A stretch of 64,000 bases of DNA from Massariosphaeria phaeospora (lineage: Eukaryota > Ascomycota > Dothideomycetes > Pleosporales): the NCBI GenBank assembly GCA_011032825.1, contig JAADJZ010000001.1:2418001-2482000 (forward strand), read 5' to 3'. The position numbers were made by a program, and so were the translations under genes. The notes under the pieces were generated by a model, which saw nothing but the letters and a program-made list of their open reading frames with translations, had not been told where the DNA came from and ran no database searches. Shown here piece by piece: positions 873 to 59,992 of this stretch; position 1 is the first letter of the stretch; each line of letters begins with the position of its first letter.

Positions 873-1812
873 CTATGCTTGTGCGCGCAGCGCTCGAAGT
901 TGCGCAGCGCTCGAAAAATACTAAAACACTAGACAAGCTACTAACTTTAACGCGTTGCATTTTAACTACTACAACAGCTATAAAAGCTGCGCTTGCAGCA
1001 ATTAAATTACTTAAACTAAAAAAAAAATTTACATACTAAGCAATAGCTAATAAGTTTAACGTAAACAGAACTATACTATTTTAAAAATACTAAAGCCGTT
1101 AGAGTACGCAAGAAGCTTAGAGAATTAACTAACAAAAGCTTTGCTTACAACAAGAAATAAAACTTGTAAGCTATATTAAAAACTTTACAAAAAAAAGCTG
1201 CTTTTTACAAAAGAGATAATACAAAATTTTGCATTTTAGATAGCTACAAAGCTAGTAAGCAACGCTTAAGTAACGCGCTTTTTTTACTAACAAAGCAATT
1301 ATTTAATTTTTAAATAGTTTTTTAGAATAGACTTTTTTTGCTACAACGCTAATTTAAACGTTAAGTACGCGTTGTATTTTAACTTGCTACATGCTAAAAT
1401 AAAGTAGTACAACGTACAACCGCGTTACTACTATAATATAAATTAAAAAAGTTTTATAATGTATAACAAGTTACTTAAAACAAGTGTTTACTTAATAGCA
1501 ATTAAAAAAAAAAAAGTGCAAGCATTACTCTAAAATAGCTTTTGTAAGTAAATAACTTTTTTAGCAGCTATTTGCGCTAATAAAAGCGCTCTACTGCTTA
1601 GTTTTATTTTTTAAGCGTTATTAAAGTTACTGTAGTTAAGCTAGGTAGCTAACGTTAAAGCAAAAAAGCACAACGTTTTTATTACTTTATTCTTGTTTAG
1701 CTAGACAAATAATAACATTGAATTAGCATAGCTTAAGCAGGGTTTTAACTGCTACACAAAAGAAAAAGCGCGCAAAAAAAAAACTAGCGTTTTTTTATAC
1801 TTAACAGCTATA

Positions 1813-2314
1813 TGTTACTAGAAGTATTCTTTTACCAAAGGTAATTGTAATTGAACTTAGAAATTCCGCCTAAGAAATTGTTTTATATTTAGAAAGCTTA
1901 ATAACAACAAAGAAAAATAATCTTAATTCTATATTAAATAAAATAACAAAGTAACAATCTGTTGCCTATAGATCTAATATATGTATAAAATGTACTTAAA
2001 AGAGTTAACTACAAAGAATTAAAATTATAAATTTTTTTTTACTAATTTATATAGTTTTATAATTTTTTGCTTAAAGCGTTTTACTTTGCTTGCTACGTTT
2101 TACTACGTTGTAGCACTTGTAGCGCTCGTAGCAACTGTTGCTTAGTATGCTACGTGCTAAAGCTTTGTAGCACTCGTAGCGCATTACGTAATTTTGCTAA
2201 CTTAATTTTGCTTTGCGCGTTGTTGTACTTCTACTTTGCGCACTAGCAAGTTTTAACAACTTTCTTACGTCGTTGCTTAGTTTATAATACTTAGTATCGT
2301 TTTTATTTGTAACA
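1813..2314 (-). repeat. G1 3' LTR (502 bp)
   Basis: This matches 18,339-18,838, 37,374-37,873, 53,979-54,482 and 60,610-61,110. Its ends are TGTTACTA and TTGTAACA, and the target duplication CTATA precedes it. The central segment at about 2,085-2,185 is built from GTAGC-rich repeats (GTAGCACTTGTAGCGC and variants). It is the downstream LTR because pol is on the minus strand. Confidence 0.88.
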
Positions 2315-2480
2315 TTATTTTTTTTTAGAGAATATTGTCTTAATAGCTGTTTTGTTGTACTATGCTAGTTCTTTTTGTGCTTTGCATCAAAAGTGTTTTT
2401 TTTGTATAAAAATAAGTTAACTTTAATTTTTGTCGTGTTGTAGCTTTTTCTTGTATTCTTTTGAGTTTTAAAGTTTAACT

Positions 2481-2717
2481 ATGCTTAAAGTCTTTGTATT
2501 TTCTTTTGCAAAATTAACTACTTGTAAACACGCTTGTTTTGCGCGTATTCGTGCAATAGATTATTTTGTAGCAAAGCCTTGCCGTTGCTACTTGTTAAAG
2601 AGTCTAAAGTTTTTTTTTTTGCTTAAAAAAACTTGTTTAGACTGTATCTCTTCTAGCTTAGTATGTAGTTTTTTTCTTTTTAAAGAAAAGTTTGCTGCTG
2701 TTGCTAAAAAACAGTAG
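2481..2717 (+). pseudogene. RIP-degraded antisense ORF of gypsy G1 (zinc-cluster relic)
   Basis: A 78-codon frame lies between the left LTR and the pol end, antisense to pol. It is the counterpart of the better preserved ORF at 61,277-61,810 in the second gypsy copy, at the same distance from the LTR. The cysteine pattern is damaged: the first pair has lost one spacer residue and the third cysteine reads Phe, but a CLDC pair and a following Cys remain. It is not expected to make a functional protein. Confidence 0.55.
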
Positions 2718-7600: not shown

Positions 7601-7905
7601 TAGCAAATTCGCAATAAAACTTTGCTGTACGCACTAGTTAGGTATAGCTATAGTTTAAAAAAGCTACTAATTCTAGTAATAGCTACTTCTACGTATTTTG
7701 CTATAATTGCAGTTTTGCTTTTTAGCACCTAGCAGTTAAGACTATTAGAACTAAATACTTATTTAACTACTTTAAATCTAGGGCTTGCTAGAAAACGCTT
7801 ACTTTTGTTTACTTTTAACTTCGTTTACAGCTAGCACTACGTTAACTCTAATTTACTACTATTGTACTACTATATTTAACTTAGGCTTTTGAATAAAAAC
7901 TAGTA

Positions 7906-9753
7906 ACGTATTCTACTATTACTTTAGCTAACTTATTACCTCGGCTAAAAAAGCTTAGCAGTACTAACTTCTTTATTAACGTAACATGCTTCAACAACAA
8001 AACGCGCAGCTATTTAATTAAGAAAGTAGAATTTAGCTTGCTCTTTATGCCTGTACTACACGCTAATTTTAAAGCTTTTACTACGCTGCTAAAGTATTTA
8101 GCATACTTTCTTTAACTTTAACTAACTAATACAACGAAATTACGCACATTTTTAAAAAACGTAACAGCTAACAAAAGCTTACTACGACTAAAAAGCAAAC
8201 AATTGTCTAATATATTTTTAACTTTAATTTGCAAGAATTCGCGCTCTAGCTGTGCGAGGTAGTAGATATAGCTAATAAAGTGCTAGGTGTGCGCAGTAGC
8301 GAGCTAGTTAGCAAACACTAAGCTAAGCGCTTTGTAACGCACTTAGATAAACTTAAAATAGCTTTTAATTAAGCAAAGAATAGGCAGAGAATACTCTAAG
8401 AGAATCTAGAGATAATTAGCGCGTAGTTTAAGCTAGTAGAAAAAACTAAAGCTAAGTACAGCGTTTACAACGACGATGTGCACAACTCTAACAAAACTAG
8501 CTTCTAAATAAGCGTAATTAGCTCTATAAAAGTTGTTACAAGCGTAGAAAAACGCGCTTAGCTAGAGCTTGTTTAGCTAGGCAATTGCAAGTAGGTTACA
8601 GTTATCTAAAGCGTGTGCGCTGCTAGGTACGCAACTTTGCTTTTTATTATTTACAAAAAACGCGTTTATATCTTTGCGTAGTACAAAAAAGCTTTAATAC
8701 TACGCGATTAAAAGCTCTTAGTGTTAAAAAATAGCTAAACAAACAACGCTTTAGGTTTAGAGTAGTTAAAGCACTTTAACGCGTATACAAAAACGCGCTA
8801 GGTAGAAGTATACTAGCTACTTATTCTAGACAGCTATAAGAGCTACTAATTTTAGAATTTTAAAAACTATTGCTTTAAGAACAAGATTTTAACTTTTTGC
8901 ATACTTTTCTACTTGTTGCATATTCTCTAGCTGCTTAACGTAGTTTACTTTTCGCTGCTAAAGCGCAAGTACTTCTAGCGCGTTAGAAACTTAGCACGCT
9001 AACGCGTTTTCTATATTAACAAAAAAAGCTTTCTTTTAGCTTTTAAAAACGCGTTTTTTAACGTATTTACAGAAAAGAACTGCTGCAAGACTTTTAAAGC
9101 GTTAAAAATAGTTTCTATTAACGCGTAGATAGTATTAGATTGCTTTAAAGTGCAGCTGCGTACTCTACTAGCACTTCTATACCTAGAAACGCCGTAGCAG
9201 TTAAAAACTCTAAGCAATACGCACGAGTTTAGATCTTAGTTAAAGCTAGTACGCAATTTCTTTCTTTAATTACTTGTTATAGCTTAGACTAGCTTTTTGT
9301 AGCTTATAAAAGGTAGTAAACTTATGCTGTACTAAAACGCGCTTCTTGCTACTTGCAATAAAAGCTTAAAAAGCAATTAGCAAAGCTTACAAAGCAGAAA
9401 TCGCGTAAGCGCAAGCGAATCTAGCAAAGTAGTACTATAAAGTATAGAACTACTGCAGCGCAAGTAGCTACTAAAGCGTTTGCAGCGCTTTAGCAATCTA
9501 AGAAAGCTTGTAGTAGTAGTAATTAAAAACTAGCTCAACTAGCTCTACGGCGCTGTAGAAACTATAGCAAAACTAGGCATAACGCGCAAACGTGCAAAAA
9601 AAATATAGAAATATATTCTAAATTAGATGCAAGCACAACGTACGTAGGTTTTTTATTTAATAGTAATAAAATTAAAAAGGCGTAACGTAAGTTGGTGCTG
9701 CTAAGCCTTTTTAGCCGAGGTAATAAGTTAGCTAAAGTAATAGTAGAATACGT
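7906..9753 (+). mobile_element. Pogo-like transposon copy A (1,848 bp), nested in T1
   Basis: It is flanked by TA at 7,904-7,905 and 9,754-9,755. The inverted repeats are nearly perfect for about 58 bp: head ACGTATTCTAC, then unit TATTACTTTAGCTAA, 2 bp, and TATTACCTCGGCTAA. The plus strand reads as a RIP-broken pogo transposase (CENP-B helix-turn-helix, DDE_1 core) ending in a zinc knuckle of the form C-x2-C-x4-H-x4-C at about 9,545-9,600. Stops are frequent and no functional protein remains. Confidence 0.82.
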
Positions 9754-12039
9754 TACAAGTAGTTATATATAGCAACTAGTTTTTTTAAACAATTAAGCAG
9801 CTTTTATTCTAGCAATTTCTTTAATTTCTTCGACCTAATATTTTAAGTATTAGCTAATTCAAATTTTAGAGAATGTTCTATAAACGATTTAAAAAAGCTA
9901 AAGCATTACTACTTAATAACATTAGCTAGTTAACTAAAATCTCAATTGCGATAGATAGATAGTTTGCTTCTAATTATTTTAGTTTTTTTGTAGTTAAAGA
10001 ATACTACGTTAACTACAACTAGCAGCTTTAAAAAAAGTTACTAGATTTTATTTTTTTACGCGAAAAACATACTAGTGCTGCTGCAGCTGCTAATATACTG
10101 CAAGTACTCTTAAATACTAGTATTAAATTACGCTTTTTAGCAATTACTACAAATAATGCTAAAAAAAACAAAACGCTTAGTTGTGTTATTAAACAACAAC
10201 TAGAAGCAAAGAACATACTTTAAAGCTTATTAAAAAACTCAATCTTGTGTCTTGCTTACATTATTAACTTTGTTATTTAAAATATTATTTTACACTTTAA
10301 GCTTGCAGCATTAGTAAGTGCTAATGTTAAACTAAAAGAAATACTACAAAGACGCTATTTAAGCAACGTGCAAGCAAATATTTTTATTTTAAACTCTTTT
10401 TGCAAAGTATATAGTGCGTTATTATATACTTTTATTACAGCTTAATATACACTTAGCTTTAAGCTATTTGCATAGCAATTAATTTGTTGTTTTAACAATA
10501 CAAGCAGTTTATTGCTACGCAACTACACTTGCTACTAAAACAACAAATATCTATTATCTGCAACGTTAAAATACAATAGAATTTAACTTACAATATGTGC
10601 AAGCGCGCACTTAAAATTTAAAAATTTATTAACAAATAGCTAGTAAAAGAGATTGCACTTAAAATAACAATTAGTGCTAGCAGTATTTTTAATAATAAAA
10701 ATACAGCAAAAGTAAACTTTTGCAACTTTAAGCAACTAAAATTAACACTAAATAAATAGTACTACTTAAAGTTAATTACTAATATGCTTAAAAACTTTAA
10801 AAACGCAACAAACTATTTAAGTAAAAACTATAAGCTACAAGTTTAGTATATTTAGCTTATGTACAACTATTTTTTCAATTTCTTAGATAGTATGCAAAAC
10901 GAACTTAACAATAATATAAAAAATCGAGATACTTTTAAGTAGCCTACAGTTGTACGAACTGCTGCAAATAAAAAAAAGCTAAACTTAGCAAGTATTATAA
11001 AAGAACTAGCGATAAACAAAAGTTTTTATTTAATTGTGCTACTATTCTAGACTTTAGCTAAAAGCTTACGGCGTACGAGGTATAGTTATTATAGTTATTT
11101 ATTACAGTCATATGCTAACTGCGCGTATAAAACGAAACTTAAAATAATTAAAACAAGCACACTTACTACGAAGAGTTTTTTAATTACTTTAATTGCTATA
11201 ACGACAATACTTGCTTTGCTTTTACTTTTATTTCTTCGTTTTGTACAACTAGACTTTAAAGTAGTAAATAGTTTTAGAAACTAAAGCTTTTGCCTTAGTT
11301 GCTGCTAAGCAGTTTTTTATCTACTAACTTAAACAAAATAGAAAAAAAAAAGCTTAACTTGCTAAAGAGAAAAAGCTTATCTAAGCATTGCTTGCGTACG
11401 CGCTAGTGCTTCTTTTAATATCCTTAAATAGTAGCAAGTAAATAAAAAAACGTATTTACGTTTATTACAAGTTGCAAAAAATATACTTGTAGTACAAATT
11501 GCCTAGGTTAAAGTCAAGCGCAAATTCAACGTTGCTAAGAATGTTATTAGCAATAAAAAGCACTAACTTGCTGCCTAAACGATTTAGCAGATTATAATAT
11601 TAAAAAACTATATTGCTTAAGAAAAAAAACAGAACAGCGTTTTTCTATTTGCAAAAGCAAATAATAAGAAACTACTATATAACGAGATTAAAAACTTACT
11701 TAACTTTTAAGCGCAGTATGTAAACTTTACTTTTAAGCTTATACCTACGCTTATACTTAGCTCGTTATCTAGGCTAAAACTTAAGTTAACATTTAAGCTA
11801 ATACCTAGGCCTACATCTAGACTTTTACGATTAAGAATAACTTTGTCGAATAATAATTTAGAAGAAAAGAATTCGCTACTTTTGCTACAAAAGCGCGCTC
11901 GACTTCTACGCTACCGTAATTAATATTTGTAATAATACAACTTTTTTTACTCTACTTGTGTTCTTGTACGTAAATAGTAGCTGTAGTAATAGAACTTTGT
12001 AAATACTATTTGCGCGTTCTTAAATGTAATAACTAGCTG

Positions 12040-14481: not shown

Positions 14482-15748
14482 ATGTAATTTTGTTTTAGTT
14501 GCGTTTTTTATACGCTTTGTACAGTTGTGCTAAAAGTACTTCTACTAGCCTAATTGTAAGTCTAGTAGCCTACTAGTTTTTTGCTAAAAAAGCCTTTAAG
14601 GCTTGTTTTTTTAGAATATTCTATTGCTCGTAGTAGTTGCATTTATTAGCGAAGCATTTTTAAAGCTTTAAAAACTTGTCGTAGTTTTAGTTTCTAAAAT
14701 TTTATTTTATTGCGTTTTTTTATAGCTTATACATAGTGCATTTCGTAGTGCAAAAATGCTAACGTGCTTTTTAACACGTGTTGTAGTTCTTTGCGCATAA
14801 TTTGTTGTTGCATTTTAAGTAGTTTTTGTTTTTTAAACTTATAAGCTACTATTTAGTAATATGCTTACATAACTAGTGTGTTTAACATTTTTTATTTTAA
14901 TACTACGCTTATTTGCAGCTACTGCTGTAGTTTTTAAACTAGTTGTTGTAGTTGTATACGTAACATTTTGTTACTATACATTCGCTATCTTTAAGTAAAA
15001 TGTATAATAGTAGTTTTAGCTATTGCTAAGCAAGAATTTTATTGTTTGCGTAGTATACATAGTTTTTTTTGTTGTACTAGTGCTAAAGTAGGTTTTTGTA
15101 ATTATCTTAATTAGCAAACTATATTTTCTTTTTTGTTAGTTCTTGTTGTGCTATTGCTGCGTTTGCAACTTTTTATTTTTATACTTTTTCAATTTAAAGC
15201 GTATAAAACTTATTCTTGCAATACTAAGCAATGTAGGTTTTTTAGCTGCACATCTAGCATTCGTAGTTCTATAGTTGTTTATTAATTTCTTAAGCTTATA
15301 AAGTTAATAGTTTTTTGTTGTTTTTATTTGTTAGTTCTGTAAAGTCTTTAAAACTTTCTATTCAAATTCAATTGTTTTTTGGTTCTTTAGAGTTTTTTGA
15401 ATATAGTGTAGCTACTTGCTATAGTTGCACTATAGCAATAGTAATAGCTTATGCGCTTACTACTTGCTATTGTGTTTCTAAGCAGTTTTTACAAAAGTAT
15501 TTTACTTTGCTATATTAAAAACATGCTTTGTTGTTGTAACGCTTTTAGCGCTTTTTTTTAAACACTTTGTTTTAGAAGTATTGCTTTGTTAAAGTAGCAT
15601 TTCTTTTAGTAAATAGCTTTTGTAGTAGCTTGTTGTTCTAGATTTGTTTTACGCTGTTAATGTCTATTAAGTTGTAGTAATAAGTTTTTTTAATCGTAGC
15701 TACTAGACGTATGTATAGTTTAATAGTAGATTTGCGTTTTTACTATTA

Positions 15749-17597
15749 ACGTAATCTACTACCGAAAGCAACAAACTACCGAGAGCAACAAAATCTGCCA
15801 AAGCTGCTACTCCTTTTATTATCTTGTTATGCTTCAACTAAACAACGCGTTATTACAGCAAAACGAAAAGAGGTTTTAAATTGCCTTTGCAGCCTTTTAA
15901 GCTAGCTAATTTTAAAGCTATCGAGCTGCTGCTGCTGCTTTTAACGTTAATTACTATACTTTTTCTAAACGCACTAAAGGAACTTTATTTTGCTTTGAAT
16001 TACCTGCCAACGGCTATAAGCTTACAGCAATTAAAGAGCAAACAATTATTCGATATATACTTAACTTCGATTCGCGAGAATTCGCGCTCTAGCTGTGTAA
16101 GGTAGCAGATATGGCTAATAAAATGCTAGGTGTGCGCGGTAGAGAGCTAGTTAGCAAACACTAGGCTAAGAGATTCGTAACGCGTTTAGATTAGCTTAAA
16201 ATAGCGTTCAATTGAGCCAAGAATAGGCAGAGAATACTCCAAGAGGATCTAGAGATAATTGGCGCGTAGTTTAAGCTAGTAGAGAACACCAAAGCTAAGT
16301 ACAGCGTTTACAACGACAACGTGCACAACTTTGACAAGACTAGCTTCTAAATAAGCGTAATTAGCTTTATAAAAGTCGTTACAAGCTTTTAAAAACGTAC
16401 TCAACCTAATCTTATCTAGCCAAGCAATTGAGAGTAGGTAACAGTTATTCAAAGCATTTGCGCCGCAAGGTACGCGATTCTGCTGTTTATTATCTACAAA
16501 AAGCGCGTTTACATTTTAGCATAGTACAAAAAGAACTTTATACCTAGCAATTAGAAGCTTTTAGTTTCTAAGAACGGCTAGACAAACAACGCTTTTGGTT
16601 TTAAGTAGTTGAAGCACTTTGACGCGCATACAAAGGCGCGTTAGGTAGAGAAGTATTAGCTACTTATTTTAAACGGCTATAAGAGCTACTAATCTTAGGA
16701 TTTTAAAAACTATTGCTTTAAGAACAAAATTCTTACGCTTTGCATGCTAGCTTATTTATTTTATATTCTTTAGCTGCTAGATGTAGTTTGCTTTTTGCTG
16801 CTAAAGCTAAAGTACTCTTAACGCATTTAGAACTTAGCGCGCTAGCGCGTTTTTTATATTAACAAAGAAAGCTTTCTGCTAGCTTTTAAAAGCGCATTTT
16901 TTGAAGTGTTTATAACAAAGAACTGCAAGAAAGCTTTTAAAGTCTTAGAGCTAGTTTCTATTAACGCGTAGGTAGTTTTTAATTGTCTTAAAGTACGGCT
17001 ATGTACTCTACTACTACCTTTTGCACTAGAAACGCCGTAGCAGTCAAAAACTCTAAGCAATACGCTTAAATTTAGATTACAATTAAAGCTAGTACGCGAT
17101 TCTATTACTAGATTGCTAACTTTAGCGCAGAGCAGCTTCTTTTAGCTTGTAAAAGGAGCTAAATTAATGCTGCATTAGAACGCGCTTAAGAACTACTGTA
17201 TCAAGAAGCTTGAAAATCAATTAGCAAAGATAACTAAGCAGAAATCGCGCAAACAAAAGCGAATTCAAATAGGTAGTATAATAGAGTATAGTAACGAATT
17301 AGCGCAAGTAGCTGCTAAAGCGTCTACAGCGCCTTAGCTATTAAAGAAAGCGCGTAGTAGAAAGAGTTAAGAAAGAGCACAACTAGCTCTACAGCGCTGT
17401 AAAAATTCTAGTAATACAAGGCACAATGCTCGAACCTGCTAAAAGAATACAAAAGAAGCTTTTAAATCAAATGCTAGCACGACGTACGCAGGCTCTTTGT
17501 TTGATAGCGATGAAATTAAAAATGCGTAACATAAGTTAGTGCTGCTAAGCTTTTTTATTGCTTTTAGTAGTTTGTTGCTTTCGGTAGTAGATTACGT
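15749..17597 (+). mobile_element. Pogo-like transposon copy B (1,849 bp), nested in gypsy G1
   Basis: TA lies at 15,747-15,748 and 17,598-17,599. The ends are ACGTAATCTAC followed by TACCGAAAGCAACAA, AC and TACCGAGAGCAACAA. The right end is the same with RIP changes. From about 16,040 the plus strand reads as a pogo transposase: CENP-B-type domain, an NFDKT-type start of the DDE core near 16,340, and a C-terminal zinc knuckle at about 17,395-17,450. It is interrupted by many TAG/TAA codons. The body is nearly identical to copy C apart from transitions, but the N-terminal helix-turn-helix region and the terminal repeats differ. Confidence 0.85.
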
Positions 17598-18338
17598 TAC
17601 TACTATAGTTAGTTATTAATTTGTACTACAGTTTTAATTAGCTTTTTAAGTTTTTTAGGTTTTTTGTTTTAACTAATTTTATTTTTTACATATTTTTTTA
17701 ACTTTAGGTAGTAAAACTCGCATAAGCTGCGCTTTCTTACGTTGTTTACTTTAGTTTAAATTTGTTTAAACTTAATTGTGTATTTGCATGTAGATTTTTT
17801 TTTGTCGTAGTAATCTAAGTTTGTTTATAGCTTGTTGTGTTTTGTTTACTTTTTTTGTAAATCGTATAAAGCTTTTTTCTAAACAATTCTTAATTTTTGA
17901 AAATGCGTTGCGTATCTTGCTTTATTTTTTGCTTAGTATTACTTTTAACATAATCGTTTGCGTATAGTTAAAACTATTTTACTACGTTGTCTTTTATGTG
18001 CATTTTAGCTACAAAGATTTTATTTTGTTTTGTTAAAAAGCTTATTGTATAATAATAGTAGTAGAAGTTGATATTTGTAAGAAATAATTGTAACGTTTTT
18101 TTTTTTTTTTGCTATATTTCTCTAGAAACGGTGCCTTTGCGGCACTACTAGTCTCTTAACTCTTTAAAATTGCAACTATTTTTAACAATTCGCTAATTTG
18201 CTTGCTTATTAATTTGATTTAGCTAGTTTGCTTTGCTAATACCGTTGCTGCGATGCGCTAAAGTGTTCTAGCGCTACTACTACCTAAGCTTGCTAAAGTT
18301 ACTATACTGTTTTAGTTCTAAATTTAAAGTAGTTAACG

Positions 18339-18838: not shown

Positions 18839-19928
18839 CTATAGCAGTTACTTTACATAAGATTTTATTAACTACTACAACTTTTATTATATACTCTTTG
18901 CTATATTTCTGCTCTATAGTACTTATACGCTTTAACTACTTAACGTTGTTTACTTTAAACTTCTTTTTAGCGCCTACTTTAAAAAGCTTACTAATTACTT
19001 TTTAAAAAACTTAAAAGCTTTTTGCAGTTAAGATAAGAAACTTTTTTCTACTATTTTAAAAAGCGTAGGAGTTTTTTTTTTACAATAGAAATTATTTTTA
19101 AGTTTTTCAAAGCTACTAGTATAGAACCTATAAAGCTAAAAGTTATACTTAAGTAGTTTTAAAAATAAAAAAATAAAAAGTAAAGAAATAGTAAATTATA
19201 GTCTTTAGCACTTAAAAATAGTAACTAGCGTAAAATAAAGCGTTTCTTACGCTTTGCAGTAAAGAATAACGCTATAGAAAAATAAAGTTGCTTTTTTAAA
19301 CCCTTTACTAAGTCTAAGTGCAAAATAAGCTACTATACTATAAAAACAATAGGCTAAAAAAAGCGCTTACTACTAAAAAAAAGCAAAAAAAGAGCAGCAA
19401 GCTTTTTAACCTATAGCAGCAAGAAAAGTACTATAGTAGTACTATTTTTTAGTTTTTACAAAAGATTAGAGAAGCACGTGCATAGAAAGTAGTAAAACAA
19501 CAAAAAAGCATAAAAAGCAGCTTGCAAAGGCGAACAAGAAAAAGCTTCTAGCTACTACTAAGCTACTTTAAAAGTAGCAAGCAAAAGAAAAGCTTATAGC
19601 AAGAAAAAAAACTAAAGTAGTACGTACTAGAAAGTAGGCTAAAAAAGAAGCTGCGCGCGCTGCTTAAATCGCAGCCTAAAATACTAAAAAAGCACTTTAA
19701 ACTACCTAAAAAAGCAAGCGCAAAGTTTTAAATTTTTTTTTACTAAAGCTTAAGCGACAGAAACGCGGTAGTAGCTTTGCAGCTATTGCAAAGCTTTTAA
19801 AAGCTGCACTAAAAGCTCTACCTAAAGTTAATTTTTATAGCTGCGCTATTAGGCTTCTACGTAAATATAATTAGTATAAGTTAATTACAAGCATGTATAC
19901 AGTTGCTTTATTTAAAAATATTGTAATA

Positions 19929-40323: not shown

Positions 40324-40597
40324 GCAGCTAATAGCTAGTGCTTTCGTTACAATTAAGTGCACTTAGCTACATAATACTAAACTTTAATACTATAGCTTAA
40401 TTTTTTTTCTGTTTTCTAGAGTAGTAGAATAATATAATAAATATAGTAAATAGTAATTAAAATAAGTTCGCAAGTTAGAATTAAATAATTAAACTTTTTA
40501 TTTTTATATATACGCTAGGCTAATTATAAAAATAGCTATAGTAGCTTTTAAATAGCTTTCTAATAAGCTTGCAAGCTATGCGTAAGCTATTTGTTTA
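40324..40597. other. AT-rich spacer between D and E0
   Basis: About 270 bp without recognisable features. It could include older sequence into which D and E0 inserted. No ORF or terminal repeat was identified. Confidence 0.4.
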
Positions 40598-47447: not shown

Positions 47448-48517
47448 GTAATAGCAAGAAACAACTTACATTAAAAAGCTGCAAGAAGTGCAACAAGTAA
47501 AAAAGTATGCAAAAAGTAAAAAAATTGTTTTTCTTGTAGTACTGCTAGAACTCAAGCGAGTTGTAGCTTTCGTAGCTGTTTATAATAAGCAAACAATAGT
47601 TTTCTACAGTTCTTTTCTTTGTGTAAGCATTAAAGTGCTTTAGCTACTCTAAACTAAGCTTGTTTGTTGTTTAGCTATTCTTAGAAACTGCAATAACTTA
47701 GTTGCGAAGTAGGTTATTTTCTTTGTACTAAGCAAAAATGTAGTTCTTGCTTTAAAAAATAACAAAGAGTAGAATTGCTTACTTAGTTGCGTTGATACTT
47801 TAGATTACTGTAGTCTACTCGCGATTGCTTTGCTAAACGCTTTTCAACTATTTTTAACGCTTAGAGCTTGTAACTACTGCTTTAGTTAATATTATGCCTA
47901 TTATAAAGCCAAACTTGTTAAAGTTGTAAGTATTTTTGTTAAGAATACTATAGTTAGCTTTTGTATTCTTTACAAGTTAAAACTAGCTTCGTATAACTTT
48001 AGAATTCTTGCAGAAAGCTTGCTTGTAGTTGTACTTGCAATTAAATTTAACTTAAAGCTTATAGCAACGTTTAACGAAAGTTAAAGCCTAGTTAACGCTT
48101 ACTAGTAGTTAGCTACGCTTTTTGCGTAGTAGATTAGCTATATTCTTTATAGCAGCAAGCCGTAGCAGAAATTCTTGCGCGTTAAAATTAAGTATATGCT
48201 AAACAATTACTTTTTTCTTTATTAAACGAAGATTTGCTAAGTTAAGTGCGCAATTGCGTCGAAACTACTTTCTAGCGCGTTAATTGCTAAGTGTTGTTTA
48301 AAAAACGTTGTAGATAGCTGCAGCGCGTTGTTGAAAAAAAGTTGCGTTTTGTTTAATAGCCTAAAGCGCAAGCTGTATACGTGCTTTTTTTAAATTCAAA
48401 TTACTTATATTGTTGTTAAGCTATTGCTATTCTACTATTTGCAACAGTACGTTTTAGTAGAGTTTTAGCAAAGTAACTAACTCGCTTATGTAACTAACTC
48501 GCTTGTAAAGTACGTTA

Positions 48518-49028
48518 CTATTTATAAAGTATAAAGCTATTACCTATTTCGTAGTCTTTAGTTTAGAGTAGAATATATATTTAAATACTAAAAAAAGCTT
48601 TTACTATTAGAATATAAATAGAAGAGTTTATTTATGTATAAAATATGCAAGCTTAAAAAAATAAACCTAATTTAAAACTATAAAGCTATTATTTTATAAG
48701 TTTATAAAGTTAAAAGAATACTTTAGTTTTACTATAGTACAACTTAGGTTTAAGTTTCTCTATAGTAGAATCTTAAAGCAAAATATAATATATTTTTTGT
48801 TTTTTTATTAGAAACTATTATTTAAACTATTATATTTTACTTGTATAGCTAGAAAGCTATTATATTAGTTTATTAAACTACTAGTAGTTACTACTTTTAT
48901 ATATTATAGAGTATAAATAAAAAATACTAAACTCTGCCTATAGAGTATAAAATCTACTTTAACTTTATTTTTATTTTTATTTTTATTTTATTTTTTTACG
49001 CGCTAGACTTTATTATATATTTAATCTA
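48518..49028. other. AT-rich spacer between E0 and E1
   Basis: About 510 bp of very AT-rich sequence with short runs of TTTTATTTTTATTT. It contains ATGTATAAAATATG, which resembles a TATA region of an LTR, but no pair or duplication was found. Confidence 0.4.
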
Positions 49029-50891
49029 ACGTACTTTACGAGTTCGTGCACTACACAGGTTCGTGCACTACTTTTGCTAAGCTTCTACCAACTCAACCTC
49101 TATACGTAATGCCTTAACAACAATACTAAATAGAGCTTTCTAATAAGCGTTAGATACAAACTGCTCTTTAAGCTTTTAAACAAAACGCAACACTTTTCTT
49201 GCAACGCGTTGCAGCTATCTACAAAGTTACTTATACAACACTAAGCTACTAACGCGTAGAACAAACTCTACAAGCAAATCGCTAGCCGAAATTAAAGAAT
49301 TTAACAAAAACTAAAAAAGGCGTAGTTGTTGAGCATATACTTGACTTTATTTCGCGCGGATTCTCTTCTAGGCTCGCAGCTGTAGCTGATATAGCCAATT
49401 CTTTACGCGCAAAGCGCAATTTAGGCTAAGTTAGCTTAAACTAGTCTAGTACGTAGGTCATGCACTGCTCTAAGTTTACAATAAAGTTTAATCGCAAGTA
49501 CAATTACAAAAAAGCACTTTGCAAGAATTCTAAAGTTATCTAGAGCTAGTTTCGCCTAGTAGCTAACATAAAAGCCAAGTACAGTATCTAGAATAAAAAC
49601 ACGTACAACTTCGACAAAACAGGCTTTATAATAAGCTAGATATTAACTAAAGCAGTTGTTACAGCTTTAGAGAAACGAGAAAAGCCAAAGGCAATACAGC
49701 AAAACAATAAAAAGTAAACAACAGTTATTCAAAGCATCAACGCAACAAAGTAAGCTATTCTACTTTTTATTATTTTTAAAGGCTGCTACTACTTCTTTGC
49801 TTAGTACAAGAAAGAGAATCTGCTTTAGAACTAGGTTATTGCAGTTTCTAAGAAAAGCTAGACAACAAATAAGCTTAGCCTATAGTAGTTAAAGTACTTT
49901 AATAAGCATACAAAGAAAAAAGTAGTTAGCAGCTACTAACTACTCGCAATTAACGGCTATAAGAGCTATAACTCGCTCGCATTCTAGCAATACTACAAGA
50001 AAAACAAAATTATTACTATTTGTATGTTTCCGCACTTATCGCACTTTCTGCAGCTTCTTAATGTAGGTTGTTTTGCTTCTTTAAAAAAAGCGTACAAGCG
50101 CTAAGCTAAAAATCTCATGCGCAATTAAATTACTTACATTACAAAACTTAAGTTTCTACTATGCTTCATACGCGCCTATAATGCTGCAATTACTAAAAGT
50201 AATATCCAAAAAAGTTTCGAGGCGCTAGATTGGTTCTATTTAACCTAGAACGAGTTATAACAGCTTTTAACGTTTAGTTGCGTACTCTATTACTACTACT
50301 ACCTATTAACAACAAGCTCTAGCAGTTGCAAACTCTAAGCAATACTTTTAAACTAGAGTTACAATTAACGCTTGTAAAAGCAAAAATTTAGAAGCATATA
50401 GATAGCTTACTAACGTCTATAGTAAAAGCCTTTAAAAAAGTTTTAAAAGAAGCAGCTATTATCGCGCACAAGCTAGTGTTAGCGCAATAGAAAATAGCTA
50501 AGCTAAAAGTAGCAAATAAAGCTGCTACGCGACGTAAATCGCATAAAAGAAAGCAGGTTTAGGCAGAAAGAACTTTGACAGTTAAGAATAAAGCTCGTTT
50601 AACTACTCTAAAGGAGTTTAGAGCGCGTAGTAATAAAAAGAAGCTAAAGACGCAAGTGCGCGCTAAAGCAGGTGAACTATCTCAAAAGCAGTGTAGATAG
50701 TGCAATTAAACTAAGCATAACGCGCGTACGTGTAAGCAAGTAGTAAAAGTAAACTCTAAATAATATCTCGTGTTATATTGCTTTATACAAGGCTAAAGTA
50801 AACTGTTTTGCGCTAGAATAAAGTAGTTTTGGTAGGAGCTTGGCAAAAGTAGTGCACGAACCTGTGTAGTACACGAACTCGTAAAGTACGT
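49029..50891 (+). mobile_element. Pogo-like transposon E1 (1,863 bp)
   Basis: TA lies at 49,027-49,028 and 50,892-50,893. The ends read ACGTACTTTAC, GAGTTCGTGCACTAC, AC, AGGTTCGTGCACTAC, and the right end is nearly identical. The plus strand is among the best readable copies: a CENP-B-type region near 49,340, NFDKTGF near 49,610, and the LNVGCFASLKKAY block near 50,060. A C-terminal zinc knuckle region is at about 50,695-50,740. Stops still occur every 20-50 codons. Confidence 0.84.
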
Positions 50892-50893
50892 TA

Positions 50894-51171: not shown

Positions 51172-51173
51172 TA

Positions 51174-53036
51174 ACGTACCTAACGAGTTAGCGAGCTACA
51201 CGAGTTAGCAAAACACTTTTGCTAAGCTTTTACCAAAACTAATTTTATTCTAGCGCAAAATAGCTTACTTTAGCTCTGTATAGTATAATACAATATAAAA
51301 TATTATTTAGAGTTTACTTTTACTACTTGCTTATACCTACGCGCGTTATGCTTAGTTTAATTGCATTGCTCGCAGCGCTTTTAAGTTAGCTTACCTCCTT
51401 TAGCGCGCACTTGCATTTTTAGCTTTTTTTAATTACTACGCGCTCTAAAGTTCTTAGAAGCAGCTAAACAAGCTTTATTTTTAACTACTAAATTTTTTTT
51501 GCTTAAACCTGCTTTTCTTTATGCGTTCTACGCTGCGTAGCAGCATTATTTTCTACTTAAAGCTTTGCAATTTCTTTTTGCGCTAACACTAGCTTGTGCG
51601 CAATAATTACTACTTTCTTTAAAACTTTTTTAAAAGCTTTTACTACAAACGTTAGTAAGCTAACTATATACTTTTAAATTCTTACTTTTACAAGCGTTAA
51701 TTGCGACTTTAGTTTAAAAGTATTGCTTAGAGTTTGCAACTATTAGAGCTTGTTGTTAATAAATAGTAGTAGTAATAAAGTACGCAACTAAACGTTAAAA
51801 GCTATTATAACTCGTTTTAGGTTAGATAAAACTAATCTAGCGCTTTGAAACTTTTTTTGGATATTACTAAAAGTAATTGCAGCATTATAAGCGCGTATAA
51901 AGTATAGTAAAAACTTAAGTTTTGTAATGTAAGTAATTTTGTTGCGTATAAAATCTTCGGCTTAGCGCTTATACACTTTTTAAAAAAAATTAAAACAACT
52001 TACACTAAAAAGCTATAAAAAGTGCAATAAGTGCGAAAGTATGTAAATAGTAATAATCTTGTTTTTCTTGTAGTATTGCTAGAATTCAAGCGAGTTGTAG
52101 CTTTTATAGCTATTAATTGCGAGTAGTTAGTAGCTGCTAACTACTTTTATTTTTGTATTCTTATTATAGTGCTTTAACTACTTAAAACTAAGTTTATTTA
52201 TTGTCTAGCTCTTTTTAGAAACTGCAATAATCTAGTTTTAAAGCAAGTTATTTTTTTTATACTAAGCAAAAAAGTAGTAGCTATTTTTGAAAATAATAAA
52301 AAGTAGAATAGCTTAACTTGTTGCGTTAATGCTTTGGATAACTATTGTTTACTTTCTATTGCTTTGCTGCACTGCCTTTAGCTATTCTCGTTTTTCCAAA
52401 GTTGTAACAACGGCTTTAGTTAATATCTAGCTTTTTATAAAGCTTACTTCGTTAAAGTTGTACGTATTTTTATTCTAGATAATGTACTTAGCTTTGATAT
52501 TAGCTACTAGGCTAAACTAGCTCTAGATAACCTTTAGATTTTTCCAAAGTACTTTTTTATAATTGTACTTGCAATTGAACTTTATTGTAAACTTAAAGCA
52601 GCGCTTAACCTACATACTAGGCTAGTTTAAGCTAACCTAGCTAAAATTGCGCTTTGCGCGCAAGAAATTAGCTATATTAGCTATAGCTGCGAGCTTAAAA
52701 AAGAATTCGCGCGTAATAAGCTTAAGTATATGCTCAACAACTACGCTTTCTTTAGTTTTGTTAGATTTATTAATTTAAGCTAGCAATTTGCTTGTAAAAG
52801 TCGTTTAGCGCGTTGATAGCTTAGTATTGTTTAAGAAACGTTATAGATAGCTACAGCGCGTTGCAAAAAAAGTATTGCATTTTATTTAAAAGCTTAAAAA
52901 GCAGTTTGTATTTAACGTTTATTAGAAAGTTCTATTTAGTGTTGTTGTTAAAGCATTGCGTACATAGGTAGAGTTAGTAAAAGCTTAGCAAAAGTATTTT
53001 GCTAACTCGTGTACTTTGCTAACTCGTTAGGTACGT
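51174..53036 (-). mobile_element. Pogo-like transposon Ex (1,863 bp)
   Basis: TA lies at 51,172-51,173 and 53,037-53,038. The right end reads inward ACGTACCTAAC, GAGTTAGCAAAGTAC, AC, GAGTTAGCAAAATAC. The left end has the same layout, with a first unit differing at a few bases. The minus strand reads as a pogo transposase with its zinc knuckle near the left end (51,350-51,400). It is RIP-broken. The length equals that of E1. Confidence 0.82.
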
Positions 53037-53038
53037 TA

Positions 53039-53499: not shown

Positions 53500-53501
53500 T
53501 A

Positions 53502-55870
53502 ATGTATTTTACTACTAAGTAACTTACACTAGTAAGCAACTTACTTAATTTAAATCGTACTATAAGCTGTAGTACAAATTACGATATTTTAACAACTATA
53601 CGTTGTACTATAAGCTAGAGTATATTATTAGCTATTAAAATTATTAAAAGTAACTACTTTATAGATTCGCGCATTATGCTTTGCTTTACTATAGGTTCTA
53701 CAGCGCTTTTGTCGCAGTGCTGCATGCGCTATACTATTACTTTTTAACAACTTCGCAACTATTTCTTGCTTACTACTACTTTTTTAAAAAGTTAACCTAG
53801 CTTCTTTTTCTATTGTAAGCGTATTTTTTTTGAATATACTTTTGTTTACGACTTTTACGCTTAGTTGCAGCTTTAATAGTTATACAAAGCTAAGTAATTT
53901 TATTTACTATTAATGCGTATTTGTAAGCTACTACTAGCGCGCTTTTCTTAAGCTTTCGTAGTAACTTAAGAATAGAAATGTTATTAAAAGTGTTTTTTTT
54001 ACCGAAAGTATTTGTAATCGAACTCGAAGATTTCGCTTAAGAAAATATTTTATATTCAAAAAGCTTAACGACAACAAAGAAAAACAATTTAATTTAATAT
54101 TAAATAAAATAACAAAGTACACAAGCTGTTGCCTATAAATTCAATCTATGTATAAAATATACTTAGAAAAGTTAACTACAAAAAATTAAAACTATAAAAG
54201 AAATTCTACTAATTTATATAGTTCTATAATGCTTTGCTAAAAGCGTTTTACTTAGTTTGCTTAGTATGCTTAGTACTAAGCGCGCTAATTTTACTAAGCA
54301 ACTTCTACTTAGTTTGCTTAGTACTAAAACTACTAAGCGTGCTAAGCACGTTGCGTAATTTTTATTTACTTAACTTTGCTTTGCGTATTGTTGTACTTTC
54401 GTTTTGCACACTAGCAAGCTTTAACAAATTTCTTACGTTATTGCTTAATTTACAATACTTAGTATCGTTTCTATTCGTAATAAGAAATTAGTAATAAGTT
54501 AACGCGGAACCTAATTCTACTGCAAATAAAAGTAAATTAAACTTCAAACTCGCGCGCGTTTTTTAGTATTTGCGATTTCTAAGAAGTAAATTGCTAAAGT
54601 AGTTAATTAAGTGTACAAAAACGCATATTAAGCTTTGATATTATAGTATGTAAGTTGTGTAGAACAAGCCTAGCGCTTTTAAAAGGTTTTTTTAATGCTC
54701 TTTGCTATAAACGTTTTAAAATAAGCTATTTTAAACGTAGTAAAAAAATCTAGTTTAGCAACATAAATAACAAACTTGCGCGCTAAAAGTATAATCTTAG
54801 TACTACATACGCGTTTTAACGGCGAAAAGTAGCTAACGTTAAAAAGCTATAGCAAGTGCAACGAGTACAAAAGTATATACAAAGTAATAATATTGTATTC
54901 TACGCAACAACTTTAGAAAGCAAGTAAGTTATAGCTTTTATAGCTGTTTAGAATTAGTAACTTACTATAGCCTATAGTACGCGTTATAGTAAACGCGTTA
55001 AAGTACTTTAACTACGCAATTTCAAGTTTATTATTTGTCTAGCTGTTTTTACTAATAGTAAGAATCTAGTTGCAAAGTATAAAGTTGTTCTTGTACTACG
55101 TAGAAACGTAAACTTTGCTAGCGTAGATAATAAAGAGTAGAATCGCTTACCTACTAGCGCAGATGCAACTAATAACAGTAACCTACTTGCAATTGCCTAG
55201 CTAAACTATTTTAAGTTTTTTATATTTTTTTAAAGCTATAATAACAAGCTAAAAGCTTATAACGCTTATTATAAAGCTAGATTTATCAAAGTTGTAAGTA
55301 TCTTTATTTAGAATGCTATGCTTTGCTTTTACGTTAGCTACAAGCTTAAACTACGCGTTTATAACTTTAGAATTTTTTTATTTCTTCTTTTAGTTATTGT
55401 AAAATTAAGTTCAACGCTTTCTAAGCTCTTTTCGTTGTTTAGTAAATTAATCTAGCGAGTTAATGCTAACAAGCTTAATTTCTTAGTAAGCGCGCAAGTT
55501 GTTAGCTATATCTCGTAGTAAGCTTTTGAATAGTAGAAACTCTTTTGAATCTAGATTAAGTATACGCTTTACTATCGCGTTTTTTTTAAGTAGCGTAAAG
55601 TTCTTGCAGTTAAGCTCGCAATCGCGTTGTAAATCTTGTTTGCAAGTTTAATAATTAAAAGTTGTTTAAAGCACTAGATAAGCGCGCGTAGCAGCTCGTT
55701 AAAAAAAACGCGTTTAAACTCGTAGCTTTAATAGCAATATTTATTCTAGTTTCGTTGCTAGATAATATAGTACAATGTAGTAGTTGCATTATAATAGTAC
55801 TATAGCTTATAGTACGATTTTAGTTAAGTAAGTTACTTAGTAGTGTAAGTTACTTAGTAGTAAATTACGT
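53502..55870 (-). mobile_element. Pogo-like transposon E3 with a nested solo LTR
   Basis: TA lies at 53,500-53,501 and 55,871-55,872. The right end reads inward ACGTAATTTAC, TACTAAGTAACTTAC, AC, TACTAAGTAACTTAC. The left matches with small changes. Without the solo LTR it is about 1.86 kb. The minus strand reads as a pogo transposase with stops. Just inside the ends lies a short hairpin, GTACTATA-AGC-TATAGTAC. Confidence 0.8.
53979..54482. mobile_element. Solo LTR of the gypsy G family (504 bp) in E3
   Basis: It starts TGTTATTA and ends CGTAATA (a RIP form of TAACA). A perfect 5-bp duplication, AGAAA, lies at 53,974-53,978 and 54,483-54,487. Its central block (about 54,236-54,350) is made of GCTTAGT-type words, not the GTAGC-type of three other copies. 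It shares that block type with 60,610-61,110. Confidence 0.82.
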
Positions 55871-56365
55871 TATAGTTTATTAATAGATATAAAAAGCTAA
55901 AGCTATATAAAATTAAAATATACGCTAGTGTTAATACGTATTCTTAGTATATTGTCTAGATATATATTAGTATATCTACTAGAACTTTAGTAAGTATACT
56001 TTTTTAGTTTTTATTTACTATAAAGAGTATAGGCAAAACTGTTTACTATATCTAATTAAACTAGAGTAAAGAAACTAAGTAGATGTTATACGCTTAACTT
56101 TTACTTATATTAAGTAATTATAGTAACGCGTAGTAAAAAAACTATTTTATATAAAGTATAAGTACTATAAACTAGTAAATAAAGTTATAGTAGTAGTAGT
56201 TATCTAAAAAGTTATTATTTACCTAGAAAGTAAAACTTATAGCTTTTATTACTTCTACTTTACTAACTTATTAAAATATACTTTTGCAATTTAGTAACTC
56301 AAAATTTCTTTTTACTAGATTACTTAGTTAACGTTATTACTTTTCTTGCAATTTATATAACGTTA

Positions 56366-56450: not shown

Positions 56451-56721
56451 TTATTACAATTAATAATTCGCTAAGCTGCTAAAGCAAAGAATGCTTTTAC
56501 TTTAGCGTTAAAAGTAACAAAGTACGATTATACCTTAAGTAAGCTTAGCGCGTAAGCTAAGAACTTTCGACAACAACATAGCTTTTTTATATGCTTTTTC
56601 TAATCTTGTGCTCTTTATAGCACTTCAAAAGCAAAAAATTAAAGCGCTTTAACTAATTTGTTTAGTTTGCGAAAGTAAAAAGATTATATAAAGTACACTT
56701 ATATATATAGTTAAAACAATA

Positions 56722-56942
56722 AACTTTTATAGCTTATTATTTTCAATTTAGTTTATTTCAATTAGATCTCGATCTACTAAATTAACTTTTACTTTAACTT
56801 TAATACTTTTTGCAAAACGAAGCTTGCTACTACTTTAGTATTAAACGCTATACAACTTTTTTAGTCTATTGAACTTACTTATTTTCTAAAAACTAACTTA
56901 AAGTTAATAGACAACTTTTCTAAGTTCGCTTAGCTTTTACAA
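56722..56942 (+). repeat. Dispersed repeat, copy 2 (pairs with 240-460)
   Basis: It aligns with 240-460, with mostly transition differences, and stops at the same end word, CGCTTAGCTTTTAC. Class unknown. Confidence 0.55.
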
Positions 56943-58114
56943 GTATATATTAGATACGTAATTCTAGAATATTTTCTAAACTATTAAAAAAAAAAAGCTA
57001 ATTATAACTAAAAAGCTAACTTTATTTATATAGTATACTATTTCTTAAGTTATATATACTATATTAGGTAATTAGTAAATAGTAAGTAAGTGCAATATTT
57101 ATACTTACTTATAGTAAATACTCTAAGCTTTTAGTTTAGCTCTAAAAGCTAGTATAGCTTAAAGTAGTAGTAAAAGTTACTATAGTAGTCTATTCTTCTC
57201 TATAGTACTACTAATTTTTAATTTTTTTTTCTTTCTTTTTCTTTCTAGCTCTTTTACTTTATTAAATAGTTTAATAGCATTTTAGCAGCTAATTCTAGCG
57301 ATTCGTAACGCTGTTTCTAGAAACTAACTTGCTACTAAACTTCTTTAGCTTCGTTTATAGAGCTATATTGCACGTACTTTTCAACTTTTTTATTTTAGCT
57401 AGCGTAGGCGTTAGAAACTTGATTTTCGTTTCTACTTAGCATGTAGCAGCAAGCTTACTCGTTACGTATTCTTACTACTTATAATACTAACTTAAACTAC
57501 GGCTACTTAGCTAGCAAAGTACTTAAAGTTTTTTTCTTATTTTCTTGCAGCGTTACAAAACAAGAACTGCTACTTTATTTATTTTCTTACGCAAGCTACG
57601 TTTTGTTTGCATTAATATTTAAGTTTGCTTTGTTTCTCTTTTACATACTTTATTTTTAAACGCTTTGCTTTTAGTTGCTTTACTTCTCGTCGAACTGCGG
57701 CAAAATATAACAACGTTCTTTAGTTAAAAAATTCTCTAGATTCTCTTTCAAACTTAAAACTTTTTTTGAAAAGAATAATTATACTAAGCTTGCAAGCAAC
57801 AATGTAGACTTTGATACAAATCTAACAAACGTTAGTATAGTTGCTACTAAAAACAACAATGAAAAAGCATAGCTTTCTCTAAACAAGAATTATCTACCTA
57901 AGTACTATTTTTAACAGCTAAATAGCTTTAACAAACAAAAGTACACAAAATAAAACTATTAAAATAGTAGTACTCGCTTAATTAATTGCATAGCACATAA
58001 GTAGAAATAGTTAGGTTTTTGTTTTTCTATAGCTTACGCTAGAACGCATAGACTAACTCTAGCTTAAATGCTAAAAATACTTTTAAAGTTTTTATTACTA
58101 TGCTTTTGCAACTA

Positions 58115-59992
58115 ATGTACTCTACAAGCGAGTTGCTTACACAAGCAAGTTACTTACCTACGCTAAGCTTTTTCTCTACTACCTACTACTTTCTTTTTAC
58201 TACTTTCTTTCTACTACCTAGTACGAGTTAAAATTACTTAAATTACTTAAAATTAACTGCTGCATTTACTCTACACGTGCGCTTGTTGTGCTTTAGCTTA
58301 TCGCAGCGTCTACAGCGTTTTAAAAGCTAGCTGCTCTAATTACTAGCATTACTACGAGCTTTTTCTTTGCTTTTTTTATTACTACGCGTTTTAAACGCTT
58401 TAAAAGTTGTTAAGCGCACGTTTTTTTAAACTGTTAGAGTACGTTTTTGCTGTATACGCTTTTTTTTGTGCAACTTGCGTTACAAAAAAGCTTTATTTGT
58501 AGCTTAAAGCTTATTAACTTAGTTGCGTAGTAGTAGTACAAAAGCTGCTACGTACTCTACGCCTTTAAAAAGCTTTTTAAAAGCATTAACTATAAAAGTA
58601 AAAAAGCTATTTACATACTTTTTTATTCTTTTTTAAATTAGCTTTAATTGCGACCTAAATTTATAGGTATTACTAAGTGTTCTAGACTACTAGGCACTAT
58701 TCTTAATAGTAGGTAGTATAGGCGTACAAAAGTGCACGTTAAGCTTTGAAATTACAGCTTTTAAGTTAAATAGAACTAAGCTAGCACTTTAAAAGCTTTT
58801 TAAAATATTGCTTTTTGTAATAGAAGCTTTGTAAGCGCTAATAAAGCATAGCAGAAATTTAAGTTTAGTAATGTAGTTAATTTCGCAGCGTATTAGATTC
58901 TCGGCTTAGCGCTCGTACGCTTTTTTCAAAAGTAAAAAACAGCTTACATTAAGTAGCTGCAAAAAGTGCAACGAGTAAAGAAGCATGCAAAAAGTAATAA
59001 TATTGCTTTTCTTGTAGTACTTTTAGAAAGCAAGAAAGTTGTAGCTTTTATAGCTGTTAATAATAAGTAAACGTACTTCTTTAAAAGTACGTTTCTTTGT
59101 ATGCTTATTAAAGTGCTTTAACTACTTAAAGCTAAGCTTATTTGTTGCCTAGCTATTTTTAGAAACTGCGATAACCTAGTTGCAAAGTAGGCTATTTTCT
59201 TTGTACTAGGCAAAAAAGTAGTTCTTGCTCTAAAAAATAATAAAAAGTAAAATAGCTTACTCTATTGCGTTAACGCTTTACACTACTGTTGTTTACTTTT
59301 TATTACTTTGCTACACTGTTTTTAGCCGTTTTTAACGCTCTAAGCTAGTAATTACTACGCTTGTTAAAATCTAGCTTATTATAAAACTCGTTTTATTAAA
59401 GTTGTACGTGTTTTTGTTTACTACGTTGTACTTAGCTTTTATGTTTGCTACAAGCTTAAACTAGTTGCTAACAAACTTAAAGTTTTCGCAAAGAGCTTTT
59501 TTATAGTTGTACTTTTAATTAAACTTAACTTAGAGCTTAGGTTAACGCTTAACGAACGTTGTAGCTTAGTTAATACTAACTAGTAGCTAGCTTCGCTTTG
59601 CGAGTAGTAGGTTAGCTCTATTTGTTAAACTAGCAAGCCTAAGTAAAAATCTTTGCGTATTAAGTTTAATTGCAAAGCTTCTAATTACTTTTTCTTCTGC
59701 TAGACGAAGCTTTATTAAGTTAAATATGCAATCGCGTCGTAGAAGTATTCTAGCAAGCTAATTGCTTAGTATTTTCTGCGAAACGTTGTAGATTAATGCA
59801 ACGCGTTGCTGTAAAAGTATTGCATTGCATTTAATAGCTTAAATCGCAAGCTGTATTTACTTTTCTTTTAAAGCTAGTAGCGCGTTATATAGTTAAACTA
59901 GTGCGTTGTAAAAAAAAAAAAGTAGGTATTAGTAAAGAGCTTAGCGTAAGTAAGTAACTTGCTTGTGTAAGCAACTCGCTCGTAGAGTACGT
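58115..59992 (-). mobile_element. Pogo-like transposon E2 (1,878 bp)
   Basis: The ends read inward A(C/T)GTACTCTAC, AAGCGAGTTGCTTAC, AC, AAGCAAGTTACTTAC, close to E0. TA precedes the left end (58,113-58,114), while the right flank reads TG instead of TA. The minus strand is a RIP-broken pogo transposase with its zinc knuckle near 58,275-58,330. Confidence 0.8.

Follow-up and report, generated by a model that had tools for sequence, protein, structure and literature searches.

The DNA considered here is a 64,000-nucleotide stretch of the ascomycete Massariosphaeria phaeospora (assembly GCA_011032825.1, contig JAADJZ010000001.1, positions 2,418,001 to 2,482,000), referred to as the window. It is AT-rich DNA of the type associated with repeat-induced point mutation (RIP), interrupted between about 22 and 34 kb by a GC-richer island, and it carries a series of Fot/pogo-type transposons. 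A first-pass annotation of the window had described the ends of these elements as an 11-bp head followed by two copies of a 15-bp unit, and had held the unit to be largely private to each copy. When the ends were followed through the genome, the layout was found again, the units proved to be common to transposase lineages, and sibling lineages with similar catalytic cores were seen to differ in the right half of the unit, in step with the recognition helix of HTH_psq, the first helix-turn-helix (HTH) of the transposase.

The ends in the window were recovered by a de novo scan that required a TA and at least 12 matches of 15 between the two units; a few were placed by eye. They are listed with the readable helix codons, the fractions giving the self-match of the two units and L numbers denoting comparison loci. 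The starts of first units given earlier (7,917; 15,760; 49,040; 38,204; 34,149) are correct.

7904..7948, plus strand: element A, 5' end (TA, head, unit 1 at 7917-7931, 2 bp, unit 2); de novo scan, 12/15
9711..9755, minus strand: element A, 3' end; de novo scan, 12/15
15747..15791, plus strand: element B, 5' end; de novo scan, 14/15
15943..15969, plus strand: element B, codons 39-47, psq recognition helix, NVNYYTFSK, with K47 ambiguous after RIP
17555..17599, minus strand: element B, 3' end; de novo scan, 12/15
19927..19971, plus strand: element C, 5' end, RIP-altered; de novo scan, 12/15
20123..20149, plus strand: element C, codons 39-47, psq recognition helix
21735..21779, minus strand: element C, 3' end; de novo scan, 13/15
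35662..35706, plus strand: element D, one end; de novo scan
40596..40640, plus strand: element E0, 3' end; de novo scan, 13/15
48283..48309, minus strand: element E0, codons 39-47, NVF*TTLSN, RIP-altered; approximate
48473..48517, minus strand: element E0, 5' end, L062 lineage; de novo scan, 0 transversions of 299
49027..49071, plus strand: element E1, 5' end, L010/L029 lineage; de novo scan
49223..49249, plus strand: element E1, codons 39-47, psq recognition helix, RIP-altered form of KVTHTTLSR
50849..50893, minus strand: element E1, 3' end; de novo scan, 12/15
51172..51216, plus strand: element Ex, 3' end, under the scan threshold; by eye
52994..53038, minus strand: element Ex, 5' end, nearest compared lineage L040 (4 transversions of 299); de novo scan
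53500..53544, plus strand: element E3, 3' end; de novo scan, 13/15
55828..55872, minus strand: element E3, 5' end; de novo scan, 15/15
58113..58157, plus strand: element E2, 3' end; de novo scan, 13/15
59761..59787, minus strand: element E2, codons 39-47, NVSQKILSN, RIP-altered; approximate
59949..59993, minus strand: element E2, 5' end, flanked by CA and not TA, nearest compared lineage L059 (15 transversions of 300); phase by eye
871..915, plus strand: F1-type end; de novo scan, 14/15
21836..21880, minus strand: F1-type end; de novo scan, 13/15
34136..34180, plus strand: F3-type end, 11/15, below threshold; by eye
38191..38235, plus strand: F2-type end; de novo scan, 12/15
40246..40290, minus strand: F2-type end; de novo scan, 13/15

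The two ends of E0 lie 7.9 kb apart, and E0 is therefore interrupted. Element D has an interior near that of C (20 transversions of 300) and a different unit, and no matching 3' end for it was found. E1 and Ex are inverted to each other and form a near-palindrome at 49022-53043, with arms of 924, 368, 298 and 256 nt and 81-87% complementarity.

The comparison material came from the same genome, 42.1 Mb in 51 contigs, in which a first look gave 823 DDE_1 candidates; 150 of these were scored, and all 150 were matches. Twenty loci around such hits (L009-L028) were fetched, and a second set was made from 30 of 150 scored hits of one DNA-binding domain, in which both ends were sought. When sites with a TAAYGTA anchor were scored for self-match (at least 11 of 15), the window had 17 matching sites out of 56 at an offset of 17 and none at any other offset (10-16, 18-30) except one at offset 24; L009-L028 had 39 out of 67 at offset 17 and none at every other offset from 10 to 30. 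This is the excess of 17-bp self-similarity for which the first-pass annotation had proposed a check. A TA-flanked pair with an ACGTA head and the full layout (TA, 11-bp head, 15-bp unit, 2 bp, 15-bp unit) was present at 15 of the 20 loci, and L021 held one F-type pair; no clear end pair in this layout was found at L020, L023, L026 and L027, although L020 and L026, which recur in the second set under the numbers L032 and L039, do contain a good 5' end. The scans for inverted-repeat pairs demanded a TA flank, and TA and TAA target sites are indistinguishable because the head begins with A. Each terminal inverted repeat (TIR) holds two direct repeats with a 17-bp period, apart from three one-unit ends described below. 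L027 belongs to a distant DDE_1 family (helix GVPKSTVAH); in its ends, around 2664-2700, two copies of CCGAGAC are seen by eye 17 bp apart, which suggests that the period predates the E and F families.

In the 30-locus set both ends were located at 26 loci, whereas L039, L048 and L049 gave no end pair and a hit at L054 was discarded as spurious. By the core at positions 6-12 of the first unit, these 26 elements fall into seven types, CGTGCAC (7 elements), CGTGCAT (6), GGTGGAT (4) and CGCCGGA, GTCGGGC, GGCGGGC and CGCCGCT (2 each), plus the hybrid-ended L052, which combines one GGTGGAT end with one CGCCGGA end. Within a type the unit is identical except for transitions of the RIP kind, one L044 end having in addition a 7-bp insertion in its second unit. 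The window copies fit this picture. Among the 301 substitutions between E1 and L010, counted along the entire element, one is a transversion, and against L029 E1 has 0 transversions of 300 in the 5' 300 bp; E0 differs from L062 in the 5' part by 54 transitions and 0 transversions of 299; and element C shows 10 transversions of 249 to L071 in its 5' part. From the kinds of substitution, E1 and E0 are evidently RIP-mutated copies of lineages present elsewhere in the genome. The idea of copy-private units was accordingly given up: they had looked private because each lineage is represented in the window by roughly a single copy, and every copy is altered by RIP. A single shared unit per transposase family, which the first-pass annotation had named as the contrary outcome, is what is seen at the level of the lineage, and not at that of the larger family.

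The E-type elements are about 1868 bp long, and those of different unit types differ by about 26-61 transversions over their length, L025 and L044 aside. The mean transversion difference per site is highest in the units (0.106), followed by the 5' untranslated stretch (0.044), codons 1-60 (0.037), the 3' sub-terminal part (0.025) and the middle (0.016-0.017). In 20-bp bins the untranslated stretch is the richest, with 10 sites at 61-80, while the unit bins have 5-8 and the bin of codons 40-46 has 6.

The open frame of L010 matched DDE_1 (PF03184) with E=4e-37 and HTH_psq (PF05225) with E=9e-05, a weak call at 22.6 bits against a cut-off of 20.4, in which no single stretch passed alone. The call falls in the region of codons 39-47, which read KVTHTTLSR, NVDQSTLSR, K/NVAQS(T/S)LSR, NVSRATLSD, NVSRTTLSY, NVARTTLSH and NVPQKTLSD in the seven types. 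HTH_Tnp_Tc5 (PF03221) is not listed for the L010 frame; relatives, P0064 and P0096 among them, have it as a precomputed assignment. An AlphaFold2 model of the relative P0002, made with 61 sequences, has a mean predicted local distance difference test score of 71, rising to 80-89 over residues 11-50, with helices at 10-25, 31-37 and 42-49, and also at 67-82, 89-102 and 112-119; residues 42-49 are therefore the third helix of the N-terminal HTH. No PDB chain was found for the DNA-binding domain by sequence or profile search, and the 50 listed rows of a fold search were filled by catalytic domains (Mos1, SETMAR, retroviral integrases), so that the lack of CENP-B among them excludes nothing. In 68 non-redundant sequences, the query with 67 of 120 listed database proteins, residues 39, 41, 42, 43, 46 and 47 are variable, and residues 40, 44, 45, 48 and 51 vary little.

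The association of residues with bases was tabulated for 15 elements of 13 unit types, two types being represented twice. Same-lineage repeats were left out of the table (the L037 neighbour, L045-L047, L050-L053, L055-L059, L064-L067, L069 and L070), as were all window copies because their codons are RIP-altered. The single unit of L061 was entered as both units, and for L048, L061 and L062 the 5' end alone was seen. A scan by normalised mutual information of 529 transposase columns against the unit positions put residue 47 first for position 9, residue 41 first for position 10 and residue 42 first for position 12, in both units; position 11 was led by columns 53 and 47, which tied, and position 8 by 52 and 53. 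Among the 447 columns with at least 13 of the 15 rows scored, C9 is set apart from G9 by residue 47 alone (Asp against Arg, His or Tyr), and T12 from other bases at 12 by residue 42 alone (Gln). In all 15 lineages the split by residue 47 coincides with that by base 9; on a catalytic-domain tree built from residues 81-470 it takes 4 changes (3-4 in 1000 bootstrap replicates). Residue 42 and base 12 coincide likewise in all 15, with 5 changes (4-6). Position 9 is equal in the two units of all 15 lineages; the units of L035 and L040 differ at position 12, and those of L040 also at position 10.

Further lineages were compared with these rules. For L061 a prediction of C9 and G11 was recorded beforehand, and C9 held. 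D47 with C9 in L062, Y47 with G9 in L048 and R47 with G9 in L063 were as expected from the units, an expectation written down only afterwards. Seven lineages that lacked a usable catalytic sequence were scored by eye (L068, L071-L073 and the F-type elements of L016, L021 and L048, with the phase of L073 set from its best self-match), and all seven fit the rule for 47 and 9: L068 has Asp with C9, L071 has Glu with C9, and the five F-type ends (L016, L021, L048, L072, L073) have R47 with G9 and R42 with C12. At position 11, Lys43 goes with C11 in L044, L060, L061 and window element E2, but L022 has C11 with Ser43. A simple rule of R42 with G11, which fits L035, L038, L040 and L048, was dropped on L061.

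Arginine with G, glutamine with A on the other strand and aspartate or glutamate with C are the usual pairings when a helix reads the major groove. The comparisons support the view that the units act as binding sites of the N-terminal HTH of the transposase. The first-pass annotation had assigned them to a CENP-B-type domain, with diversifying specificity at a fixed spacing; an N-terminal HTH, the diversification and the spacing all agree with units that co-vary with a recognition helix, and what has to be changed is the part of the protein, as the one that tracks the units is the first HTH, with its HTH_psq helix 42-49.

Other evidence came from the way in which the lineages are put together. 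Distances in transversions were compared by Mantel tests among nine E haplotypes, with the omission of L044, L051 and L052 (outgroup or hybrid) and of L032, which has lost a unit. The 5' units and 3' units were completely correlated (r=1.00), the units were correlated with the psq region (r=0.47, p=0.01), and the psq region with the 3' sub-terminal DNA (r=0.55, p=0.004). With the three middle segments, the units gave 0.14, -0.12 and -0.08, none significant, and the psq region gave 0.25 (p=0.08), -0.25 and -0.18. Of the transversions between L036 and L038, 17 fall within the first 270 bp, 5 within the 1470 bp that follow and 8 within the last 130; L033 and L036, of the same unit type, have the reverse pattern, with 2 in the first 270 bp and 26 beyond. 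L029 has 5 transversions to L030 up to position 656 and 31 beyond, against 20 and 6 to L031. L052 is free of transversions to L036 over its first 700 bp and to L038 over the rest, so that its ends are mismatched, with the 5' part and unit of the one lineage and the 3' part and unit of the other. One unit only is present at the 3' end of L032 and at the 5' ends of L060 and L061, and in L032 and L060 exactly 17 bp are missing relative to the other end of the same element. These patterns suggest that relatives recombine and that selection keeps the matched parts together while the cores are exchanged. At L014 (2686-4989) a short element with ends of the CGCCGGA type encloses a 1.86-kb element (2822-4686) with ends of the GTCGGGC type; the short host is likely a non-autonomous element of another lineage.

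Taken as a whole, the most probable account is one of paired transposase sites at each end, read by the helix and changing with it, on cores that recombine. Inward of an 11-bp head with the cleavage site, each Fot/pogo-type end would carry a tandem pair of transposase-binding sites at a spacing of 17 bp, and helix 42-49 of the first HTH would contact the right half of the unit at positions 9-12. Sibling lineages would switch helix and units jointly, an acidic residue 47 going with C9, Arg, His or Tyr47 with G9 and Gln42 with T12. The catalytic middle would be swapped among lineages while the units, the helix region and the 3' sub-terminal DNA remain matched, presumably because elements with mismatched parts lose function and are immobile. 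The units of an element may be made alike by gap repair from a relative after excision or by other recombination, with loss or gain of a unit.

Several observations weigh against this account. Positions 4-7, in the left half of the unit, are led by columns outside the helix, and in several lineages they are unlike between the two units of one end. The rows of the table share ancestry, and sign tests on independent pairs had too few for significance (2 on starred branches, 4 and 5 on all branches). The G11 predicted for L061 failed, L068 has T12 with Ser42 and so breaks the rule for 42 and 12, and window element B, with K47 and G9, may be an exception to the rule for 47 and 9, its original residue being unreadable after RIP and its nearest compared relative, L071, having E47. 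In the E clade alone residue 43 stands above 47 for position 9 (0.43 vs 0.41) and above 42 for position 12 (0.81 vs 0.56). The 5' untranslated stretch between units and helix tracks neither (r=0.08, 0.05) and is transversion-rich itself, and the matched parts are therefore not one contiguous, swapped block. Codons 39-47, with 6 sites, are the best 9-codon window of the frame for non-synonymous transversions at a borderline P = 0.053, and positive selection on these codons was rejected as a conclusion from transversion density alone. In the database relatives, proteins of at least 600 residues being omitted, the helix window ranks 16th-30th of 525 in variability, after the disordered N-terminus and the linker.

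The alternative that survives best is ordinary family divergence, in which inverted repeats are family-specific and the match of helix and unit reflects shared ancestry and not contact. The lineages are indeed related, many inner branches of the catalytic-domain tree are weak (2 of 12 are starred), and within the E clade the match of position 8 with residues 52-53 is perfect but comes from one split, as expected of hitchhiking. However, each of the two partitions changes 4-5 times on the tree, and none of the other columns among the 447 yields either of them. L044 and L060 have the helix NVPQKTLSD and the right half CGCTCAC in common, with a different left half, even though over the first 179 residues their identity to a common query is 75% for L044 and 55% for L060. 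Unit distances are also not predicted by those of the middle segments, and divergence of this ordinary kind is considered unlikely.

It is considerably less probable that the units serve another DNA-binding protein, such as a host factor or a transcription regulator, and track the transposase by adjacency to its gene. The start codon does follow the 5' units at a distance of about 40-70 bp, but the 3' units change with them although they are about 1.6 kb from the helix codons with a recombining middle, the untranslated stretch between the 5' units and the helix does not track them, and residues of the recognition helix lead the association at positions 9, 10 and 12. Assembly chimeras or chance as the source of the mosaics are given as little credence: L052 is known from one assembled copy, but the pattern of L029 sits in an element with an open frame, and the separate window copy E1 matches it over its length with 1 transversion. 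The weakest proposal, that C-to-T changes by RIP altered the units copy by copy, holds within a lineage, where E1 and E0 differ from their relatives by transitions only in the 5' 300 bp, and is refuted between lineages, as the first-pass annotation had argued for differences between elements, by unit transversions more frequent than those of the middle, seen also in elements with long open frames (L010, L013, L014).

A wider scenario can be put forward tentatively. Within one genome the elements might have radiated into siblings made mutually exclusive by a readout of 3-4 helix residues and the matching bases, with the specificity parts at opposite ends of the element kept or joined on interchangeable cores. 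The driver might be the advantage of no longer being titrated and cross-mobilised by copies that RIP has killed and by short, internally deleted elements that have the ends of their parent.

Around the transposons, the GC-rich island at 22000-34000 has long open frames that by eye, from their translations, resemble an amidase, a major facilitator transporter and an amidohydrolase, and it is enclosed by RIP-altered repeats. A similar stretch of about 300-400 bp was seen by eye five times in the window, at 2000-2310, 18450-18840, 37520-37880, 54120-54480 and 60740-61110; it resembles a long terminal repeat, and retroelement-like DNA lies nearby at 2-5 kb, 12-14 kb and 61-64 kb.

It is generally accepted that TIRs and transposases change together. 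CENP-B has a related N-terminal architecture of two HTHs and a single box, not known to be built of tandem units; its agreement with the present units lies in the length of 17 bp. The Drosophila pogo transposase reportedly binds 12-bp sites, two per end, through its N-terminal HTH (Wang et al. 1999), in one family with no known series of diversification. The first-pass annotation knew of no description of such element-private units; the layout with two 17-bp repeats, however, is already published: the TIRs of Trem were described in 2010 as two 17 bp direct repeats, like those of Aft1 and Tan1 (Paracoccidioides, Aspergillus; PMC2836289). The likeness extends to TIRs of 42-49 bp, to HTH, CENPB and DDE domains and to a length of about 1.85-1.9 kb, whereas a link of unit to helix residue and recombination that keeps matched parts are not mentioned in the accessible portion of that report (PMC2836289). 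The fungal Fot and Fot-like pogo families share TIRs of 40-60 bp, a TA or TAA target site and a pogo-type transposase, and in the sections available their TIR types are classed by length (PMC7386202). The Tc1/mariner elements of Sclerotinia have conserved ends that start with ACGT, and direct repeats in TIRs are named there as transposase sites, although their own TIRs are, in the excerpted account, without direct repeats (PMC4188875). A literature search at the level of listings and abstract openings, which covered few subscription journals, found neither a recognition code between psq helix and TIR unit nor joint inheritance of the two. As far as these searches go, the resolution to a single residue and base, the series of lineages within one genome and the evidence from mosaics are new.

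The joint change of specificity in a transposase and its ends is an old puzzle, as four sites and one protein have to agree. In M. phaeospora one genome has close lineages, a hybrid, one-unit ends and a near-perfect correspondence of residue and base, and the steps of such a change thereby become readable and testable. A helix code of this kind would predict which dead or short elements can still be moved by a given enzyme, and would guide the design of orthogonal transposon tools.

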